Of a DNA stretch of 64,000 nt, positions 7,332 through 60,519 are shown in pieces. A program made the translations under genes and the position numbers. Below the pieces are notes generated by a model. That model did no database searches, was not told the DNA's origin, and was given only the letters and a program-made list of their open reading frames with translations. How positions within the stretch are numbered: position 1 is the first letter of the stretch; each line of letters begins with the position of its first letter. Source of the stretch: Luzula sylvatica (taxonomy: Eukaryota; Streptophyta; Magnoliopsida; Poales; Juncaceae); contig OX326959.1 in assembly GCA_946800325.1 (NCBI GenBank), positions 25,427,447 to 25,491,446 of the forward strand. The letters are read 5' to 3'.

Positions 7332-7890
7332 TTCTGGTTGCCTTGGATTTAACGAGTATGCGGGGCACGATTCTCTTTTCTGGTTGCCTTCGATTTAACG
7401 ATCTTCTCTGGTTGCCTTGGACTTACCTAGTATGCGGGGTATGCGTCTCTTTTCTGGTTGCCTTGGATTTAACGAGTACACGGTATACGTCTTTTTCTGG
7501 TTGCCTTACGCGGGACACGCGTCTCTTTTCTGGTTGCCTTGGATTTAACGAGTACGCGGGATACTCGTTTCTTTTCTGGTTGCCTTGGATTTAACGAGTA
7601 TGCGGGATACACGTCTCTTTTCTCGTTGCCTTGGATTTAACGAGTACGCGAGATACGCGTCTCTTTTCTGGTTTCCTTGGATTTAACGAGTACGCGGCGC
7701 ACACGTCTCTTTTCTGGTTGCCTTCGACTTAACGATCTTTCCTGGTTGCCTTGGACTTACCGAGTATGCAGGATACGCGTCTCTTTTCTGGTTGCCTTGG
7801 ATCTAACGAGTACGTGGGCTACACGTCTTTTTCTGGTTGCCTTGGATTTAACGAGTACGCAGGATACGTGTCTCTTTTCTGGTTGCCTTA
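7332..7890. repeat. Minisatellite, about 14 units of 46 bp
   Basis: Each unit begins CTGGTTGCCTTGGATTTAAC and continues GAGTACGCGGGATAC followed by a CTCTTTT run. Full units are about 46 bp; several are shortened, for example near 7396 and 7729. Overlapping plus-strand frames cross the array only because the unit is rich in open codons, and they are not genes. The array abuts the truncated copia LTR on its right. Confidence 0.85.
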
Positions 7891-31867: not shown

Positions 31868-32921
31868 ATGAGTTTCATATTTGGAAAGAAGAAGAGTCCC
31901 GCAGGTATACTAATTTCTATGTTTTTTTCTTCAATTTCGTCAATTAAGTTGAAATTTAATCAATTTTGGAAAATGAAATTTACTCAAGTGATCTTCTTTA
32001 CTAACGAATTACGGTAAAATTGGTAGAGTTATTGCGGGAGAACAAGAGAATGCTAGACAGATCAATAAGAGACATTGATAGAGAAAGACAAGCACTTCAG
32101 ACACAAGAGAAGAAGCTCATCGTAGAAATCAAGAAACTCGCTAAGCAAGGCCAGATGGTAACTTCAATTTTCGTGATTCATCAACAAATCGAGCCAATTT
32201 TGGTTCGATTTCGATTTCGTGTTCTTATATTTTTCGGGTTGATTCTTACAGGGAGCAGTGAAAGTAATGGCGAAAGATTTAATTCGCACGAGGCATCAAA
32301 TCACCAAATTCTACGGCCTTAAATCCCAACTCCAAGGCGTATCTCTTCGCATCCAGGTAAACTCTTCTCCGATCAACTGGAGATCTCCAGTTCTAAAATC
32401 TCTGACAAGTTCTTCTTCTCTCTGATTCGCAGACTCTGAAATCGACGCAAGCAATGGGGGAGGCAATGAAGGGGGTGACGAAAGCGATGGGCCAAATGAA
32501 CAGACAAATGAATTTACCAGCATTGACGAAAATAATGCAGGAATTTCAGATGCAGAACGAACGAATGGAGATGACCAGTGAGGTCATGGGTGATGCGCTC
32601 GATGATGTCATGGAAGGTGACGACGAGGAGGAGGAGACCGAGGAACTCGTCAGCCAAGTCCTCGATGAAATCGGCATCGATATTAACAGCGAGGTATGTA
32701 GATTAATAATTAAATTAATTAATATTTGTTTACAAATTGGATAATTAATTAAGTAATTAATTGCATAAATGAAATAGTTGGTGGGGGCGCCATCGAGTAA
32801 TGTGGTGAAACAAACGGGAGTGGCGACACAGAAAGTCGCGCAGTCTGAGGGAACGAGCGAGGAGGGAGGAGGAATAGACGACGATTTGCAAGCCAGATTG
32901 GATAATTTGAGAAAAATGTGA
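31868..32921 (+). CDS. VPS2: ESCRT-III subunit VPS2 (CHMP2-type), 225 aa, 5 exons
   Basis: Acts with VPS24 in ESCRT-III polymers that shape and cut multivesicular-body necks, and recruits the VPS4 ATPase. Exons: 31868-31904, 32027-32157, 32252-32356, 32433-32693, 32778-32921; all GT-AG and in frame. The start MSFIFGKKKSPAELLRENKR is the conserved CHMP2 N-terminus. A basic helical half (alpha1-alpha2) is followed by an acidic half (VMEGDDEEEETEELV). The C-terminus DDLQARLDNLRKM matches the MIM1 motif bound by the VPS4 MIT domain. Length and composition (basic N, acidic C) fit the family. Nothing is broken. Confidence 0.96.
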
Positions 32922-33497: not shown

Positions 33498-36400
33498 ATG
33501 GTGAAGGGCGAAAGAGATTGTTCTACGATCGCGATCGATCTCGGAACGTCCTCGACTCGCGCCGCCGTGTGTCGCAATGGTGTAGTAGAGAGCATCGCTA
33601 GTATTCCGTCTTACGTGGCGTTCACCAGTAACGGCGATGTACTCGTCGGAGAAGCTGCGATGAATCAGGCCGCTACTAATCCTTTGAATACCCTCTTCGG
33701 TGAGTGTTTATTGTTAAATTACTTGGGCATTTCTTCTTTTTCTACACAATTTCAAGTTTTTCAACTAAATTGTCTTCATGAATTCTATGAATTTTGACTA
33801 ATTATTGCATGAATTTCTTCAACAGATGCAAATCGTTTGATTGGGAGGCAGTATTCTGATCCATCAGTACAAACCAACTTGAAACTATGGCCATTTAAGA
33901 TCGTATCGGAGCAAAACAACAAACCAGTATTTTCGATCCAACAACACGGGGAAGAAAGGCAAATTTCGCCTCAAGAAATATGCGCCATGATCTTAATCCA
34001 CATCAAAGAATTAGCCGAATCTTATCTTGGTAATCTCATCACTAATGCAATAATCACCGTCCCAAATTACTTTAACCATTTACAAAAACAAGTAATTAAG
34101 GATGCGGGCTCGGCCGCAGGCCTATCCGTCAGACTGGCCAATAGTTCGATGGCAGCTGTCATGAATTACGGTTTCGAAAAATCATTTGATGGTCATGAAA
34201 TTGAATATCACATATTATTATTTGATCTCGGGGCAGGAACGTCAAATGTATCCGTGGTTAATATCAATAATGGTGTCTTTGATGTTAAATGTGTTACTGG
34301 AGATCTCCAGTTAGGCGGTGAGGATTTTGATAATCGAATGATTAATTATTGCTTAAACGAGTTCAAGAAGAAACATAAAATGGATTTAAGCGAGGACCCG
34401 CGAGCTATGAGTAGACTTAGAATTGCTTGTGAACGAGCGAAAATTAATCTTTCTAATAATTCTACTAATACGACCTCAATTGGTTTAATTTCCCTTCATA
34501 ACGGTGTCGATTTTCATTCAACAATTTCTAAATGCAAATTCGAGGAACTCAACATGGATCTCTTTCAAAAATGCATCGAATGTGTCGATCAATGCGTTAA
34601 AGAAAGCACGGTTAAATTTAATAATATTTCCAAAGTAATTTTATTAGGCGGCTCTACGAGAATCCCTAAATTGCAATATATACTTCAAAAATATTTCGAT
34701 AAAAAAGATATAATTAAGAGTATGAGTAACCGAGACGAGTCGGTTATTTCCGGAACCGCCGTTTTATCAGCCTTTTTAAATAACGACAATAACGAAAAAA
34801 TTCAAGATTTAATGGTTTTAAACGTGACCGCTTTTTCGTACGGGATCGAAATAGAGGGAGGTTTGATGGCTATATTGATTGGCAAAAATAAGAAAATTCC
34901 AAAGAAGAAAGAATTGGTTTTCGTGACGGACCACGATAACCAAAAACGTTTCTCGTTTAGAGTGTTCGAGGAGGATAGAGGACGAGTTAAAGACGATAAT
35001 TTTCTCGGAGAAGTCGAGCTTATCGGAATACCGCCTGCGCAGAAAGGGGTTCAGAAAATTCATGTTTGTTTCGATGTCGATGCGATGGGGACTTTAATTG
35101 TCTCCGCGGAGAATAAAGTTGGTAAAATAAAGAAAAAATTGGTTTTTAATATTAATAGTAGTGAGGTTGGAATTAATAATGGTAGTTACCATGAGGAGGA
35201 TGAATGTGTGAAGAGAGTTAATGAAGCGAAAGATTTGTTGGTTAATTATATTGAGGGCTTAAAAGAAAATATATCGAGAAATAAGGAAATTTCTTCGGAT
35301 GATAAACATAGAATCGAAGAAGCGATGAGTAACGCTGATTTGGTAAATTCGGAGGATTTTATAATAAAAATGGAAGAATTGAAGAGAATATACAAGGGAA
35401 TAATGGAAAAAGTATCGTTTGGTTCGAGATTCGCAATTGGGATAGATTTTGGTACAACTTATTCTTGTGTGGGTGTATGGATTAATGATAATGTCGAAAT
35501 TGTGTGTAACGAAGAAGGGAGTCGCATAACGCCTTCTTGTGTCGCTTTTAATGAAAATGAAAGACTAGTTGGAGATTTGGCTACGAACCAATCTTCTATG
35601 AACCCTACAAACTCTATTTTTGGTAAGCATATATTAATTAATATATTACCATGTATTTTATATTAAAATTGTGTATGAATATAGATTAATATCGAGCATT
35701 TTTTTTTTTCTGAATGTAGATATAAAACGATTAATTGGTAGATATTACTCGGACCCATCTATTCAAAACGACGTAAAATCATCATCATTAACAATCATAT
35801 CCGATTCAAATAAGAGACCCAATATTGTAATTCAATACAAAAACAAAGAAAAATATTTACTCCCCGAAGAAATTACTTCGATGATTTTCACAAAAATGAA
35901 AGAAATCTCCGAAATGCACATTGGGACCACAGTCGAAAATGCCGTCATAGCTCTTCCTTCTTATTTTAGCCATTGTCAAAGAAACGCTACGCGAAACGCT
36001 GCAAAAATAGCCGGTTTAAACGTAATTAGAATAATTAACGAACCAACCGCTGCGGCCATTGCATACCACTCGCAAAAATTATCCCCTCACGAGAGTTCAA
36101 TAGAGAAAAATATTTTCGTTTTCGACCTCGGAGGGGGATATTTAGATACATCTGTGATTAATATCGTGAACGGAGTGATTAAAGTGCGAGCCAGTTTCGG
36201 AAACAATAATCTTGGTGGAGACGAATTCGACGACAACATGGTTGCTCATTTCGTTGAGGAGTTCAAGAGGAAGGAAGGAAAGGAGGAGATCTTGAGTAAT
36301 TTTAGAGCGATGAGAAAGTTGAGAAATGCATGTGAGAAGGCGAAGAGAGTTTTATCGACGGTGTCGAGAACTACGATCGAAATCGATGCTTTGTTCGACG

Positions 36401-37389
36401 GGATCGATTTTTGTAGCGCGATAACGAGAGATGAGTTTGAAGAGATCAATATGAATCTTTTTCAAATGTGTACGGAAACCGTCGAAAATTGTCTTTACGA
36501 AGCTAATATAAAGAAGAGCGAAATCGATGATGTCGTCGTCGTTGGTAGTTCGACTCGGATCCCGAAAATTCAACAACTTTTACAAGTAAATTTAATATCA
36601 ATATTATCGTTCCGTTCAAACTCTATTATTAATTTTTTTATTTGATATGCCATGTAGGACTTCTTTAATGGAAAGGAGCTTTGCAAGAGTGTTAACCCCG
36701 ACGAAGCTATCGCGTATGGTGCGACAATCCAAGCTGCTTCCATGAATTTAGAAATTCATGATGTCACCGCTACAACCCTCGGCCTAGAAACGGCTAGTGG
36801 TGACATCACCATTTTAATTCCAAGAAACACAAGTATTCCGACAAGTAAAGAACATATTTTTACCACCAACTCGGATAATCAATCGAGCATCTCGATACAT
36901 TTATGGGCATGTGAATCGGGTTGTTTCCTTGGGAAGTTCGATATAATCGATATTCCTCCTCGTCCGAAAGGTCTACCGAAAATTTGCGTATCGTTTAACA
37001 TAGATTTAAACGGTATATTGAATGTAAACGCATATGACATAACTCGCGGAGAGAGAATACAGATCGGTGTTAAAGAGATTTCGTGCGGGTTAACGAACGG
37101 AGAGATCGAGAAATTAAAAACAGATTTAGAGAATTATAAATCCGACGATCAAGATAACGTTAGGAGAATCGAAGCGAAGAATAATCTCGAGGATTACGCG
37201 TACAAAGCGAGAGAAATGTCTCAAGATGCGAGAGTCGCGGGAAAACTTTATTTTACCGAGAAAAGAAAGATCGCCCGTGTCATCGATCAGGCAATTACTT
37301 GGCTCGACACCGAACAGTTTGCGGAAACATCGGAGCTCGAAGACAAGTTGGTCGAATTGAAACGAGTTTGTGAACCTCTCATTCATTAG
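33498..37389 (+). CDS. Fused tandem HSP70-like protein, 1198 aa, 4 exons
   Basis: Exons 33498-33699, 33826-35622, 35720-36585 and 36658-37389, all GT-AG and in frame. Unit 1 is residues 1-602 and unit 2 residues 603-1198; each has a nucleotide-binding domain, a peptide-binding domain and part of the lid. The junction lies inside exon 2 with no stop. Unit 1 is degraded at the active site: the family Lys71 is Asn70 (DANRLIG), the NEP motif is NSS (Ser174, Ser175), and the second phosphate motif is LGAGTSN. Unit 2 keeps IGIDFGTTYSCVGVW, Lys669 (DIKRLIG) and NEPTAAAIAY (Glu774), but has Tyr807 where the family has Thr (LGGGYLD). Both units end at the lid and lack the EEVD tail of cytosolic HSP70s. 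No signal peptide is seen, so it is probably cytosolic. A Met at residue 594 could start unit 2 alone. I infer a pseudo-ATPase plus possibly active ATPase; chaperone activity is unproven. Confidence 0.9.
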
Positions 37390-43060: not shown

Positions 43061-44530
43061 TTTTAAAGGACCAAAATGTAAATTTTAAAACTTCGAAGGA
43101 CCAAAATGCAAATATAAAGGACCAAAATGTGGAAAAAGGACCAAAAAATATTTTTTTAAAAAAAATAGGACCAATTTGAGGCCCCTGGACTAAAATTTAA
43201 TTTTAAAACTTCGAAGGACCAAAATGCAAATATAAAGGACCAAAATGAAAAAAAAGGACCAAAATGTAATTTTTTTTTCGAAAAAAGGACCAATTTGTAA
43301 ATAAAAAAGGACCAAAATGAAAAAAAAATATTTTTTTTTTCAAATAGGCCCCTAGTGACGTGGCTGCACCAGGCAAGAAAAATAATAAAGGACCAAAATG
43401 TAAATTTTTAAACTTCGAAGGACCAAAATGCAAATATAAAGGACCAAAATATAATTTTTTTTTAAAAATAGGACCAATTTGAGGCCCCTGGACTAAAATG
43501 TAAATTTCAAAACTTCGAAGGACCAAAATGCAAATATAATGGACAAAAATGTAAAAAAAAAGGACCAAAATGTAATTTTTTGTCGAAAAAAGGACCAATT
43601 TGTAAATAAAAAGGACCAAAATGTGAATTTCAAAACTTCGAAGGGCCAAAATGCAAATATAAAGGACCAAAATGTAAAAAAAAGGACCAAAATATATTTT
43701 TTTTTCGAAAAAGGGACCAATTTGTAAATAAAAAAGGACCAAAATGTGAAAAAAGGACCAAAATATATTTTTTTTTAAAAAATAGGACCAATTTGAGGCC
43801 CATGGACTAAACTGTAAATTTCAAAACTTCGAAGAGCCAAAATGCAAATATAAAGGACCAAAATGTAAAACAAAAAGGACCAAAATATAATTTTTTTTCG
43901 AAAAAAGGACCAATTGGTAAATAAAAAAGGACCAAAATGTAAAACAAAATATCTTTTTTACGAAAAGGCCCCTGGTGACGTGGCTGCACCAGGAGGCTGC
44001 AAATAAAAAGGACCAAAATATAATTTTTTTTAAAAAATAGGACCAATTTGAGGCCCCTGGACTAAAATGTAAATTTCAAAACTTCGAATGACCAAAATGC
44101 AAATATAAAGGACAAAAATATAAAAAAAAAAGGACCAAAATGTATTTTTTTGTCGAAAAAAGGACCAATTTGTAAATAAAAAAGGATCAAAATGTAAATT
44201 TCAAAACTTCGAAGGGCCAAAATGCAAATATAAAGGACCAAAATGTAATTTTTTTTCGAAAAAAGGACCAATTTGTAAATAAAAAAGGACCAAAATGTGA
44301 AAAAAGGACCAAAATATAATTTTTTTTTAAAAATAGGACCAATTTGAGGCCCCTGGACTAAACTGTAAATTTCAAAACTTCGAAGGGCCAAAATGCAAAT
44401 ATAAAGGACCAAAATCTAAAAAAAAAAGGACCAAAATGTAATTTTTTTTCGAAAAAAGGACCAATTTGTAAATAAAAAAGGACCAAAATGTAAAAAAAAT
44501 ATTTTTTTTTACGAAAAGGCCCCTGGTGAC
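43060..44530. repeat. Complex tandem repeat field built on GGACCAAAATG
   Basis: Dozens of short blocks such as AAAGGACCAAAATGTAAA, CAAAACTTCGAAGGACC and AAAAAAGGACCAATTTGT recur in higher-order units. GACGTGGCTGCACCAGG, part of the Helitron 5-prime subterminal sequence, recurs near 43,358, 43,978 and 44,530. Long minus-strand frames here (rich in Phe, Leu, Trp) are by-products of the repeat and are not called. Confidence 0.9.
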
Positions 44531-47398: not shown

Positions 47399-50300
47399 AT
47401 GGCCTGGAGGGCGCTGGTGAGGAAGGTTAGATTTTCTTCTTCTTTTATTTCATTTATAGTTCATTTTCACCGAAAATTATTGTCTCCTGATTCAAATTTG
47501 TTTATCAATTCGATTTTGGTGACAGAGTTCGAATTCGGGTTACATTGCAAACTATAGGGCATCAAGAACTACCTCTGATTCACTCAATAATTTATCTAGT
47601 ACGAAATCCTACATTTTCTCTCAATTAAGAATGCAATTGAACTAATTCAAACGAAACTATTTTAATGTACAAATTTATACAAATCGTTCATTTTCTTCTT
47701 CTCGTTTCAGACCTTCTATTCCATCAAGGACTCGAAAGCAGTACAAATTACACGATTTCCAAAACCCCCCTCAATATTCGGTAAATTCTCACAAATACTA
47801 AATACTTATTCTTAAAGTTTAAACTAATTAATTACCTATCATTACAGAAATTATCACGCGAGTCTACATTTACTATCATGGAGAGGAGGAAAATCACAAG
47901 AATCTCAAGGTCTAAAATCCAAGAGAGTGAAAACCCCGAAGAGAGAGCACACTAAAACTCAAGTACCAGTCGAAACCAAGTACGTACCGCCGAAACTAAA
48001 ACACAAAACGAAACCGGCTCAAGAGAAAACCATAGAGATATTCGAAGGGATCTCTCTCGTCGAACTCTCGAAACGTACCGGAAACTCGATCAAATCCCTT
48101 CAAGAGATTTTGACGAACGTGGGCGAAAAAGTCAACTCCGAGTTCGACCCTCTCAGCCTCGACATCGCCGAGTTGATCTCCATGGAAGTAGGAGTGAACA
48201 TTAAGAGACGCCACTCGAACGTCAACACGGATCTCAAAGCAAGGCCACCTGTCGTGACGGTAATGGGCCACGTGGACCACGGAAAAACCTCCTTACTCGA
48301 CGCCTTACGCAAAACTTCCCTCGCCGCCAAGGAGGCCGGCGGTATCACCCAACATCTCGGGGCCTTCGTGGTCGCCATGGCCTCCGCTGGATCCTCCATC
48401 ACCTTCCTCGACACTCCTGGCCACGCCGCCTTCTCTGCCATGCGGGCCCGCGGCGCTGCTGTTACTGACATCGTGGTACTAGACCCTAAACCCTAACCAA
48501 TCTAAATTTTTAATTTGGGGGATTTCATATTTACCCTTCCAAAAATAAAAACCCTTCCAAAAATAAAAATATCTTATTTACCCTTTTCAAAACTCAAAAT
48601 ATCATATTTACCCTCTCAAAAGTCAGAGTCGTCTGTTTTTTCTGTGAAAGTTAACGGTCAATGTTTAAAAATTAAAATTACCATTTTACCCTTTGTGTGA
48701 GTTAGATATTTATCTGTTTTTAAAACACAAAGTATCATATTTACCATTCCAAAAATAAAAATATCTTATTTAGCCTTTAAAAACTCCAAAAGTACGTATT
48801 TACCTTGTTCAAAACTCAAAATATCATATTTACCCTCTCAAAAGTTAGAGTCGTCTGTTTTTTCTGTGAAAGTTAACGGTCAATATTTGAAATTACCATT
48901 TTACCCTTTGTGTCGAGTTAGTTATGTATCCTTTTTTAAAACACAAAATATCCTATTTACCCTTCCAAAAATAAAAACATGACATTTAGCCTCTAAAAAA
49001 TCTGAAATAATCGTAAATATGATATTTTATCTTTGGAAGGCTAAATATGACATTGTAGATTTTTAGAAGGATGAATATGTTATTTTGAGTTTTGAAAGGG
49101 TAAATATGTAAATTCCCCTTTTATTTTCAACTTATTTCTCTCAATATCCCTATTCTAAAAGTTTTCCTCGTGATTTTTTTTCTGTGGCGAAACAGGTACT
49201 CGTCGTTGCTGCTGACGACGGCGTGATGCCGCAGACCCTCGAGGCAATTTCGCACGCCCGGTCCGCAAACGTACCGATAGTAGTCGCTGTTAACAAATGC
49301 GACAAAGCGGGCGCGGATCCGGAGCACGTCAAGATCCAATTAGGTTCAGAAGGTCTACTCCTCGAAGACATGGGCGGAGACGTGCAAGTGGTCGAGATAT
49401 CCGCGTTGAAAGGCACGGGTTTGGACAGATTAGAAGAAGCCCTTTTACTCCAAGCAGAGATAATGGATTTGAAATCCCGGGTTACTGGACCCGCTTTGGG
49501 GTACGTGGTGGAAGCGAGAGTAGATCGCGGACGCGGGCCTTTGGTAACGGGTATAGTCAAAGAAGGCGTGTTGAGCGTGGGGGAATTCGTGGTCGTGGGG
49601 ACCGAATGGGGGAGGGTTAGAGCGATGAGAGACATGAACGGGAAAATGGAGAGGAGTGCGGGGCCCGCGATGCCGGTGGAGATTGAAGGGTTGAAAGGGT
49701 TGCCGATGGCCGGAGAGGAGATTGTCGTGGTGGGTAGCGAGGAGAGGGCGAGGATGCTTAGCGACGGGAGGAGGAAGAAGGGTGAGAGAGAAAGGTTGGT
49801 GCGGTTGAACGAGGAGAGAGAGGAAGAAGTGAGAGTGGATGAGGAGAGAGAAGAAGGCGACGAGGAGAGAGAGAAGGAGAAGGAGAGGGTCGAGTTGCCG
49901 GTTATCGTTAAGGGCGATGTTCAGGGTACCGTTCAGGCCGTTTCTGACGCGTTACGTAGCCTTAATAGTCCTCAGGTATTCGTGAATATAGTACACGTGG
50001 GAGTGGGCCCCGTTTCGCATTCCGATATAGACAAGGCTCAAGCGTGTAACGCATGCATAGTCGGATTCAATATTCGCAACCTCCCAATCTCCATTTCCCA
50101 ATCCGCTACTAAATCCAACATCAAGGTCGTAACGAAATCTTCAAAATAATTTACACATTAATATTTTACTTAATATTTTTATTTTTTTAGATATTCCTAC
50201 ATGGAGTAATCTACCACCTTCTAGAAGAAATGGGGAAACTAATAGTGGAGAAAGCGCCGGGGACGGCGGAGACGCAAGTATCGGGAGAAGCAGAAGTGTT

Positions 50301-53121: not shown

Positions 53122-53574
53122 CTAAATATTGAAATTAATGTTTTTTTATAATATTATTAATAATTTGGGACAGAATTAATAATTAATTAGGTGTGAAAAT
53201 ATGAGAGATACATATTAAAATAGGGGATGTATCTTGACATGAATAAATATCTATTTAATTAAAAGTATCTAGAATTTAGATGGATAACATGTATGGTTGA
53301 AAGGGTGTATTTAGGGGATGTATATTGTTTCTATTTAAACCCTTTGCATGTACGACAGGGAGAAAAATTTATAAGAAAATTAAAAAGGGGCAATTGCCCC
53401 TGTGGGGTCTCTCTCCCTCTCTCTCCGTGTTCTATTCTATTTGATTGAATATTTTCATTGGTTATTGATATCTATCCCCCAATCCAAACCCCATCCATAT
53501 CTATAATCAAATGAAGTCCAAATTCTAACATGGTATCAGAGCCGAGGTTGTTTGCGATTGTTTATCGAGAACGA

Positions 53575-53720
53575 CGAATATCGAGCGACGGATATCGAGC
53601 GACCATTATCGAAAGCGGCGGTTATCGAGCGACGAATATCGAAAGCGACGAATATCGAGCGACCGTTATCGAAAGTGGCGGTTATCGAGCGACGATTATC
53701 GAAACGACGGTTATCGAGTT
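53575..53720 (+). repeat. 15-16-bp tandem repeats of TATCGAGCGACG type
   Basis: About nine units alternating TATCGAGCGACGA and TATCGAAAGCGGCGG, just inside the PBS. Since most are 15 bp, two overlapping frames remain open and give periodic peptides (for example YRATIIESGG). Open frames here are explained by the repeat. Confidence 0.8.
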
Positions 53721-53915
53721 TAGTAGAAGTCGGAGAAGGAGTCACCAAGACAACCAAAGATGTTACGTTCTTGGGCTCACACGAACTTCACAACTCATTT
53801 CCGAATTATCAAGTTTAGTAGAAGTCGAAGAAGGAGACTCCAAGACAACCAAAGATGTTACTTACTTGGGCTCACATGAACTTCACAACTCATTACCGAT
53901 TTATCGAGTTTAGCA
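53706..53915 (+). repeat. Two-and-a-part direct repeats of about 105 bp inside the TRIM-like element
   Basis: Each copy has TTATCGAGTTTAGTAGAAGTC or TTATCAAGTTTAGTAGAAGTC at its start, then AAGACAACCAAAGATGTTAC and GGGCTCACA-GAACTTCACAA. A third partial start lies at about 53,900. Confidence 0.75.

Positions 53916-54531: not shown

Positions 54532-54534
<3 letters not shown>

Positions 54535-54615
<81 letters not shown>
54535..54615. repeat. (CT)n microsatellite in LTR2
   Basis: About 40 CT units. The matching site in LTR1 (about 53,407-53,426) is short and interrupted, so the expansion happened after insertion. Confidence 0.95.
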
Positions 54616-57594: not shown

Positions 57595-60519
57595 ATGAGC
57601 CATACTATTAGGCTTCCTTCTTCATTTCGATCAGTTACGAATCACAATACAGCCTTCTTCTGGCAGTCTTGCGTCGTCCCCGCCTTGCGCACTGCTCTCG
57701 CATGTGCTATTATTGGTGTAACTACAGTCTATGGACCAATCAGGTTTCGCCAACTCATCGAATTCCCTGCCTTCTCTTACGTAGCGACGATTATGATTAT
57801 CGGCGAGGCGACGCTTGGAGAAACTTTACATGGTGCCACGTGTTCCGTATTCGGAATGATTTTAGGGGTGCTTCCCGCCATGTTGACTATGCTTATAATA
57901 AAACCTGCTGGATTTTCCATCGGTACCACCACCGTTGCGGTGTTTCTGACAGCATTTTTTATTTCATGGACCGAGCCCATGGAGTTAATAGCCAAACGTA
58001 TAGCACTCGGCCAGACCGTGTTGATATATGTGGCAACCTTTAGGCATAATGATTTGGGTGGACATGGCCTCATGCACCAGGTTCATGTTGTTGCCAGTAC
58101 AGGACTTGGTATATCAGCTTCAGTCCTTGCTTTGCTGTTTCCTTATCCAAGACTTGCATCACATGAAGTAAGAATAATTTAAAGATAAGTCTATTATATA
58201 TTCTAAGATAATCATTAATTAAGGTGATTTTTTTTTAATTTTCATAGGTGAGAGAGAAGAAAAAGATGTACAATGAGATGGCTATAGAAAGAATACGGGT
58301 TTTAGTGGAGGGGTTTTGTGCAGAGAATAAATCGTGCATGGCAGCTTTGGTCTCTCAAGCTAGATGCTTTGGTGCATCAAGCACTAAGCTTCTCAATCAT
58401 ATCAAAACCAAACAAGTATAATACTAATCTCTCTTATTTCTAACTATTTTGTTAAGGTTAGTGTAGGAATGAAAGTAACTATTGTCTTTCTTGAAGAATC
58501 ATAAGAAAAAGGTGAAGTGTTAATTAGATTAAAATTAAGATAGAGATGATAGAATATATAATATTATAACAAGAAAGATTCATAGATTAAATAACCCTTG
58601 AGAAAAGTTAGGGTTAAAGTAAGATAAAGTTTATTACATCATTCGTATATATAAAGACAATCTAAGAGATTCTAATTCATTCATGAGGGTTCCACATCAT
58701 AATAAGGTCATGAAACACAAACGCAAAAAAAATGATGGTTTAAAAGGTGATACCAGTACGGGGAATCCTCATCAGCATCAATGAATCTAACTAAAGTATA
58801 CTTTGCTTATATAATTTAACTAAATTAATGAATCTCCATTTGGAACAGGGAAACCTACAATGGGAGAGGCCATTCATGTTTTCATCAAACCCTCACCTTG
58901 ACCAAGCCATGACAAGAGATAGTCTCCAAGCCATTGAAATGTCATTGAAAGGAATGGAGATTGCCCTGACTTCAACCAGCTCTGTCCCAATCAAATCCTT
59001 ACACGTCGAACAACAACAACAAGAAGATTTTGAGATTAGTCTTTCCATACTGAAAGACCAAATAAGTCTCAAATTACTCAAACCAAATTACTTCAATCAC
59101 CAAAAGGAGTCCTTAAACTTGACCTTTCAAAATCTTAGTATAAAACCACAAAACCCTAATGAGTCCCTCCCTTCTCTCTTCTTTCTCTTTTGCATGAATC
59201 TCCTTCTCAAAAAACCTTTAAACGCCATGATCAATGTCGATGGATCACAAGAAAACAAGGTCATTCCTACTACGACGGAACCAGACTCAAGTTCGTTCAA
59301 CGAAGAACCAAATCAGATAACCAGCAAAAGGAAAATTAAATCATTTTGCTCTTTTAAGCTAATAACTAAGGAAAGACTAATTGCCTCGTTGAAATGCGCT
59401 TTTTCTCTCTCTCTCGCAGTTTTTTTCGGCATTCTCTTTAGTCGTGAGAATGCTTATTGGTCGGGTCTCACTGTTGCAATCACAATGAATCCTTTGAGGC
59501 AATCAACGTTCAAATTGGCTAATTTGAGGGCTCAAGGGACAGCATTAGGGTCCATCTATGGAGTATTGGGTTCTTTTATCTCTCAAAATTTGATGGAACT
59601 AAGGTTCTTGGTTCTGTTACCTTTGATTATATTTACCGGTTTTTTACGGCATAGTAAAATGTATGGTCAAGCTGGCGGTATAGCCACAATAATCTCGGCT
59701 ATTGTGATATTGGGTCGGAGAAATTATGGATCTCCTATGTCCTTTACTATAAATAGGTTCTGCGAGACTTTTATAGGGTTGTCATGTTCAATATTTGTTG
59801 AACTGGTTTTACAACCTACTAGAGCTTCAACCCTAGCACAAGAACAACTTTTTCAAAGCCTCCATACACTAAGAGAATGCGTGGTCTCCTCGAAAAGAGA
59901 AACGAAGCTTCGAGAACAAGTTAGTGTGCTAAAGAAGTATATAACAGAGGCCGATTCCGAACCGAATCTTTGGTTCTTGCCTTTCAACACTACTTGCTAC
60001 CACAAGTTACATGATTCTCTATCTAACATGGAAAATTTCATGTACTTTATGAGTCAAGGTTTGGAGTTTATTTCTCATGAACTCGGAGAGCCTTTGGACG
60101 AGGCAAAAGAGAAGATCATCGAGAATATAGATAAATTCAAGAAGGTGGCGTGTGCTTCAATCAAGTTCATCGAATTGATTTGCACTTCAAATAATTCAAA
60201 GTCTCATGATATAGAAATGGCCGGTCATGTAGAACAAGAATTATGCGAGTTCGGTTCTCTGAGCGACTTGTACGAGCAGTGCGAGAAGTATGAGATGGAG
60301 ATAATCGAGGTGTTTGAAATGGAGGGTTTGTTGGGTCATAGAGAGATGAAGGGAGAATTTCAGCTTAGTATAGGTTGTATTTTGTTTTGTATGAAACGAT
60401 TGATGAAAGAAATTAAGGAGATGGAGAATAGAGCAATTGAGCTAGCTCATTGGGAGAATCCAGAGAGAAATGTAAATTTGAATGAGATCTATTGTAAACT
60501 TAGGGGCCAAAATGCATAA
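57595..60519 (+). CDS. FUSC-family (aromatic-acid exporter-like) membrane protein, 803 aa, 3 exons
   Basis: Exons 57595-58167, 58248-58415, 58849-60519; GT-AG and in frame. The N-terminal half has about six hydrophobic helices starting at residue 25 (VVPALRTALACAIIG), with LGETLHGATCSVFGMILGVL and later EPMELIAKRIALGQTVLIYV. A soluble helical region with basic VREKKKMYNE follows (exon 2 on). A second membrane domain starts at about residue 435 (LIASLKCAFSLSLAVFFGIL) and contains ENAYWSGLTVAITMNPLRQS and LRAQGTALGSIYGVLG, the classic FUSC/fusaric-acid-resistance signature; the C-terminus is a long helical cytosolic tail. This two-module arrangement and length match the plant family annotated as p-hydroxybenzoic acid efflux pump-like. 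The substrate in plants is not known to me, so transport is inferred from the family. Confidence 0.9.

Follow-up and report, generated by a model that had tools for sequence, protein, structure and literature searches.

The window analysed here, 64,000 nucleotides of contig OX326959.1 from Luzula sylvatica (Juncaceae), contains at 33498-37389 on the forward strand a predicted gene for a protein in which two HSP70 units are fused. We give an even chance to the reading that the gene represents a conserved double HSP70 family of rushes and sedges, in which a non-hydrolysing HSP70 arm is joined to an ATPase-competent HSP70. The most likely form of this arrangement is a pair in cis, with a non-cycling HSP70 arm placed ahead of a putatively ATPase-competent HSP70 that lacks the EEVD end, the functions of the two units being inferred from their residues.

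The sequence-based gene model has four exons, three GT-AG introns and 1198 codons followed by TAG, with no internal stops, and the predicted protein has 1198 aa and a mass of 133.9 kDa (~134 kDa). The Pfam HSP70 profile PF00012 matches it in two stretches, one per unit, and the protein as a whole scores 1091.1 bits; residues 1 to about 601 make up unit 1, and unit 2 takes up the remainder, starting at about residue 601-602. Exon 1 (33498-33699; this and all following parts of the gene are on the forward strand) carries the start codon and the N-terminal part of the first nucleotide-binding domain (NBD 1; aa 1-67 and the first base of aa 68), with DLGTSSTR where canonical HSP70 has DLGTTYSC. 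Intron 1 (33700-33825) splits the Asp codon ahead of (N)RLIG, and its position is common to the window gene and the own-genome loci L009, L010 and L011, while L012, in which the exon 2 start is disrupted, is not comparable. Exon 2 (33826-35622), which includes the codon of Asn70 (33831-33833), the unit 1 equivalent of K71, runs without a stop through the rest of NBD 1, the linker, the beta part of the substrate-binding domain (SBD-beta) and a shortened lid into the start of unit 2. The junction falls within this exon in a single open frame, the end of the unit 1 lid and the passage into unit 2 (KVSFGSRFAIGIDFG) lying at 35300-35433. The original prediction placed a complete second NBD in exon 2; unit 2 has only its first 65 or so residues encoded there, and the rest of NBD 2 is found in exons 3 and 4. 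Exon 3 (35720-36585) encodes most of NBD 2, with Lys669, Asn-Glu-Pro at 773-775 and FDLGGGYLD, and exon 4 (36658-37389) encodes the end of NBD 2, the linker LEIHD and the SBD-beta and lid of unit 2, ending in the TAG stop without an EEVD. The Asp codon of the DAKR motif is split by an intron in both units, and the second intron of unit 2 lies at LLQ/DFF. That two HSP70s share one frame, as first proposed, is upheld by the two profile stretches, the stop-free frame and the recurrence of the fusion in relatives.

The protein search for tandem HSP70 domains in related plants that the original prediction called for returned, among the 120 best of 3037 matches in a large protein set, full-length doubles in Juncus effusus (annotated protein P0001, 1218 aa, with 70% identity over 100% of the window protein length) and Rhynchospora tenuis (annotated protein P0002, 1219 aa, 60% identity over 99% of the length). 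Identity between the window and Juncus proteins is 66% in unit 1 and 77% in unit 2. A second set of doubles from Rhynchospora and Juncus shows 38-41% identity (39-41% in P0019, P0020, P0023, P0024 and P0025), and a degenerate Rhynchospora copy (P0121) was added by profile search. In P0168, a single frame takes in NBD 1 sequence, the joint and the first part of NBD 2 and continues past the intron position; this sequence shares 67% identity with the R. tenuis region used as query, and the longest of its contigs has 6,683 bases. A PF00012 search of the L. sylvatica genome itself (445 Mb, 37 contigs), in which 57 of 133 candidates were scored and 83 matches obtained, yielded at least four further doubles, all on contig C4: L010 and L011 (group B) and L009 and L012 (group C). 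All four, like the window gene, join unit 1 to unit 2 in one open frame, and three of them (L009, L010 and L011) have stop-free gene models. The fusion is hence present in each of three paralogous groups and in two families of plants. Predicted proteins with two HSP70s are in themselves no rarity among the 120 best of the 3037 matches; the present family is set apart from them by the conserved fused exon and the common ancestry of its units. Carex, Cyperus and other sedges did not occur among the matches listed (at most 120 per search, with the candidates partly scored), and since one list omits even P0001, absence from these sedges is not established. Two side observations concern the HSP70 genes of contig C4. 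In L012 (G000:C4:50819000-50828500, reverse strand) the frame continues past unit 2 into a partial third NBD start, and another piece of HSP70 NBD follows; this may be the remnant of a decayed triple or a fragment lying next to the double. Clusters of divergent single HSP70s without EEVD occur at G000:C4 48.10-48.14 and 50.00-50.43 Mb, some with a stop inside the profile match.

The two units differ sharply in their residues, which are given in Hsc70 numbering for rows that exclude the truncated or degenerate Rhynchospora copies P0028 and P0121; P0168 spans part of unit 1 only and L012 is gapped at K71. The positions that we take to be the key residues of HSP70 were placed in the units by motif. 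In unit 1, K71 is absent from all 11 rows, E175 and T177 from all 13, and N174 is found in one of 13, while D10 and T13 (12/12 rows) and E268 and K271 (13/13) are retained throughout. D199 and D206 are each present in 10 of 13 unit 1s, and G202 is replaced by Ala in 12. All 12 unit 2 rows keep D10, T13, K71, D199, G201-G203, E268, K271, R272 and D366, with D206 and N174 in 11 and T177 in 10. E175 is likewise found in 10 of these rows (Asp in group C), and the unit 2 of the window protein has both K71 and E175. Position 176 is Pro in seven unit 2s, Thr in four and Ser in one, and T204 is Thr in five of the 12. The Asp after the linker is retained in 10 of 12 unit 2s, and the unit 1s of group A have four hydrophobic linker residues in 4/4 cases. 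None of the 12 unit 2s has an EEVD end, the window protein terminating in VCEPLIH; the L012 row is trimmed at its C-terminus in this comparison, and the L012 open frame is likewise without an EEVD end.

On these residues, unit 1 is predicted neither to hydrolyse ATP nor to switch, and unit 2 is predicted to remain catalytically competent and to retain the Asp contacts, its linker strand being altered. The individual residues named in the original prediction (Asn70, Ser174 and Ser175 in unit 1, Lys669 and Glu774 in unit 2) are all correct, and the Asp it reported as lost from the second phosphate motif of unit 1 corresponds to Asn208 (D206-equivalent), with Asp201 (D199-equivalent) retained. 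Its description of unit 2 as near-canonical does not stand, this unit having 54% identity to canonical plant HSP70, Tyr at the T204-equivalent position, no EEVD and an altered interdomain linker.

In a 51-row tree, a branch with 100/100 support sets the 13 unit 1s apart as a group, and a second branch, equally supported, does so for the 12 unit 2s. In both unit groups, group A stands apart from B plus C, group B is split into rush and sedge members, and the window protein is sister to that of Juncus effusus with Rhynchospora outside; a smaller tree gives the same result. A tree of the NBDs only recovers the unit 1 group (u1) at 100/99 and the unit 2 group (u2) at 95/98, its outgroups being long-branched. 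The motif DLGTxxxR occurs in all 12 unit 1s with an N-terminus and in one unit 2 (L012). Single relatives of either unit were not found, as none of 16 single HSP70s chosen from the 83 own-genome matches (51-row tree), nor the single L023 (NBD-only tree), falls inside u1 or u2; L023 has an intron close to, not at, the position of the second intron of unit 2. In these trees L012 was used without its exon 2 start and with its unit 2 trimmed to 610 residues, and the L009 model used for the 51-row and NBD-only trees, the residue comparison and the identity comparison has a wrong intron 2 donor, with ~31 residues of unit 2 missing.

Since the unit 1s group apart from the unit 2s and both groups branch in the same order, the simplest account would be one head-to-tail fusion of two cytosolic-type HSP70 genes, followed by at least two duplications, before Juncaceae and Cyperaceae split. 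The separation of Juncus and Luzula is put at about 60 million years in PMC11538461. Other plant doubles (P0003, P0004, P0005, P0006, P0009, P0016 and P0022) resemble the present family in having at least two HSP70 regions per predicted protein. A common origin with P0003, P0005, P0009, P0016 and P0022 is not supported, as none of these falls in the u1 or u2 group of the smaller tree; their halves pair with each other in P0003, P0009, P0016 (89/83 only) and P0022, and not in P0005. P0004, P0006, P0007, P0008, P0010 and P0026 are among the further plant doubles outside that tree.

Both units are under constraint in the one paralogue pair compared, L010-L011 of group B, for which the ratio of nonsynonymous to synonymous substitution (dN/dS) was obtained by a simple counting method, more distant pairs being saturated or involving the mis-modelled L009; the corrected L009 intron 2 donor was used in the constraint analysis. 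The ratio is 0.51 for unit 1 (95% interval 0.39-0.65) and 0.29 for unit 2 (0.22-0.38); for neither unit did any of 500 bootstraps reach 1. The model of window exon 2 (mean pLDDT 65.6, pTM 0.52) matched HSP70-family entries in all 50 Foldseek rows shown, and AlphaFold2 applied to the full-length Juncus double P0025 was moderately confident of NBD 1, NBD 2 and SBD 2, with a poor prediction for SBD 1 and low confidence at the joint. A heat-inducible promoter is not supported, no exact heat-shock-element trimer being found within 1 kb upstream of any of the five own-genome doubles, a result that is weak either way; heat-shock-element dimers occur in this interval once each at the window gene and L009 only.

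With D10, T13, E268 and K271 kept, unit 1 may still hold nucleotide. Predicted to be incapable of hydrolysis and normal switching, it would serve as a static arm for holding clients or for docking on unit 2, and unit 2 would supply the ATPase cycle. The double protein may thus be a one-chain version of a pair of inactive and active HSP70s, working by analogy like the partnerships of Ssz1 with Ssb or of Hsp110 with Hsp70. The part of built-in regulator or co-chaperone suggested in the original prediction would likewise be conjectural. The lack of an EEVD predicts independence from TPR co-chaperones. A more specific version, in which the ATPase-dead HSP70 regulates in cis the competent HSP70 behind it, with the parts of the switch split between the halves (a hydrophobic linker without catalysis in group A unit 1s, catalysis with a rewired linker in unit 2s) and neither being normal alone, is put forward tentatively and with some doubt.

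Several observations weigh against the favoured reading of the doubles. R272 is kept in only one of the 13 unit 1s and changed in 12, and nucleotide binding by unit 1 may therefore be lost too. Positions 2 and 4 of the LLLL linker are polar in 12/12 unit 2s, compared with 0/16 of the own-genome singles, which could mean weakened coupling there. In DnaK, the side chains of T11 and K70 contact the gamma-phosphate, and residues unable to form polar contacts there incapacitate allostery, according to PMC12406271; loss of the K71 equivalent breaks allostery in that work, an argument against a unit 1 that is fixed in an ATP-like state. Of the two units, unit 1 is the faster-evolving, and constraint is not clear at the joint (dN/dS 0.80, 0.38-1.93; 151/500 bootstraps at or above 1). 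The exon 2 start of L012 is broken and P0121 is degenerate, the NBD-only tree leaves the order of the groups within u2 without resolution, and the placing of the units is not confidently predicted in the P0025 model (mean pLDDT 69.8, pTM 0.52). The absence of the heat-shock-element trimer counts on the same side, as does the report in PMC10687569 that single T1 genes without EEVD are scarcely expressed, with transcripts hard to detect, in the four species surveyed.

The main rival, to which an appreciable though lesser probability is given, places the doubles, as fused members, among the expanded, EEVD-less and lowly expressed plant HSP70s, the fusion being tolerated and unit 1 decaying, with at most a minor role as a chaperone. 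Single HSP70s without EEVD are common in the genome (13 of the 16 chosen rows), some of them are close to the doubles of groups B and C at C4 50.44-50.83 Mb, and the elusive T1 transcripts, the faster evolution of unit 1, the disrupted L012 and the degenerate P0121 would all be expected of tolerated fusions. Retention of the frame in three groups and two families, however, argues against this, as do the unit 1 dN/dS of 0.51, with no bootstrap reaching 1, and the alteration of the same catalytic and relay positions in the unit 1s while D10 and T13 stay.

It is unlikely that the fusion acts mainly as a covalent dimer or scaffold, with unit 1 as a second client-binding site and nucleotide playing no part. 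This would agree with the presence of an SBD-beta after NBD 1 in the aligned rows, the lid helices kept in group A and the near-complete loss of R272 from unit 1, but it leaves the retained D10, T13, E268 and K271 unaccounted for, and the unit 1 of group B has little lid and a poorly predicted SBD. Less probable still is the capture by fusion of a true Hsp110- or Ssz1-type protein, serving unit 2 as exchange factor or ribosome-complex partner. The family link to Hsp110 evoked in the original prediction is not supported, and neither is Hsp110 membership of unit 1 by its sequence: of its 159 matches among solved structures, the best 60 belong to Hsp70, BiP and Ssb types, Sse1 and Hsp105 are not the best solved relatives in either structure-match list (best 60 of 159 and best 60 of 166), and a separate Hsp110-type gene piece in the genome (L029) has Hsp105 and Sse1 as its best matches. 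The Hsp110-type row stands apart on a long branch, its placing unsure, in the NBD-only tree, and unit 1 has lost K71, which Hsp110 retains. Least credible is a wrong merging of two adjacent genes or an assembly error at the junction, the objection foreseen in the original prediction, since, although several other double annotations resemble gene-prediction merges or near-identical tandem copies (e.g. P0005 and P0026), the junction lies in one open frame in the window gene, in four other own-genome doubles and in P0168, the fusion recurs in the annotated relatives in Juncus and Rhynchospora, and P0001, L010 and L011 lack the Met found near where unit 2 begins, which is thus not a conserved residue.

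Among known systems, the truncated cytosolic HSP70s of the plant T1 lineage, as described in PMC10687569, are alike in being of cytosolic type, lacking EEVD, having an intron in the DAKR codon and being expanded in clusters. They differ in being single units, whereas the window protein is a double with a unit 1 that has lost catalytic residues. The likeness is one of features only, the window gene sharing the lack of EEVD and, in both units, the DAKR intron; the trees contained no named T1 sequence, and at 133.9 kDa the window protein is outside the range of the single T1 unit of 50-90 kDa. The same source reports a survey of 192 genomes in which proteins of 50-90 kDa were retained, so that a 134 kDa double would have been removed, and neither Carex nor Cyperaceae is named in the main text. 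The yeast ribosome-associated pair of Ssz1 and Ssb is alike at most in its working, with a non-hydrolysing HSP70 beside an active one without EEVD, and the unit 1 residue pattern is compatible with a loss of hydrolysis as in Ssz1; the two are, however, separate proteins with Zuo1 as a go-between. Hsp110/Sse1 with Hsp70 similarly offers a regulatory HSP70 relative beside an active one, again alike at most in working, but constitutes a separate family, represented in this genome by L029, and unit 1 matches Hsp70 types best. Among the matches listed in the open-licence literature for tandem, fused or double HSP70s and for HSP70s of rushes or sedges, no such protein is described, in keeping with the original statement that the combination was not one known as described.

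The genes flanking the double HSP70, at 32406-32921 and from 38157 onward, are presumably of VPS2/CHMP2 type and a ubiquitin-conjugating E2, respectively. Elsewhere in the window, Pfam matches indicate pieces of a translation initiation factor IF-2 type gene (47828-50146) and an open frame with FUSC_2 / aromatic acid exporter-like matches (58795-60516). Tandem repeat arrays are located at 7333-7889, 43380-44346, 53562-53913 and 54534-54615, and include 46/212-base units, a AAGGACCAAAATG-rich array and 41 copies of TC. No RNA families at gathering score and no tRNAs were found within the window.

Genes of this kind can be missed when an HSP70 survey selects proteins by size. HSP70s usually meet their regulators as separate proteins, and a conserved protein that covalently joins one apparently inactive and one apparently active HSP70 is a natural construct for finding out what the inactive partner contributes to the active one, at a fixed one-to-one ratio.
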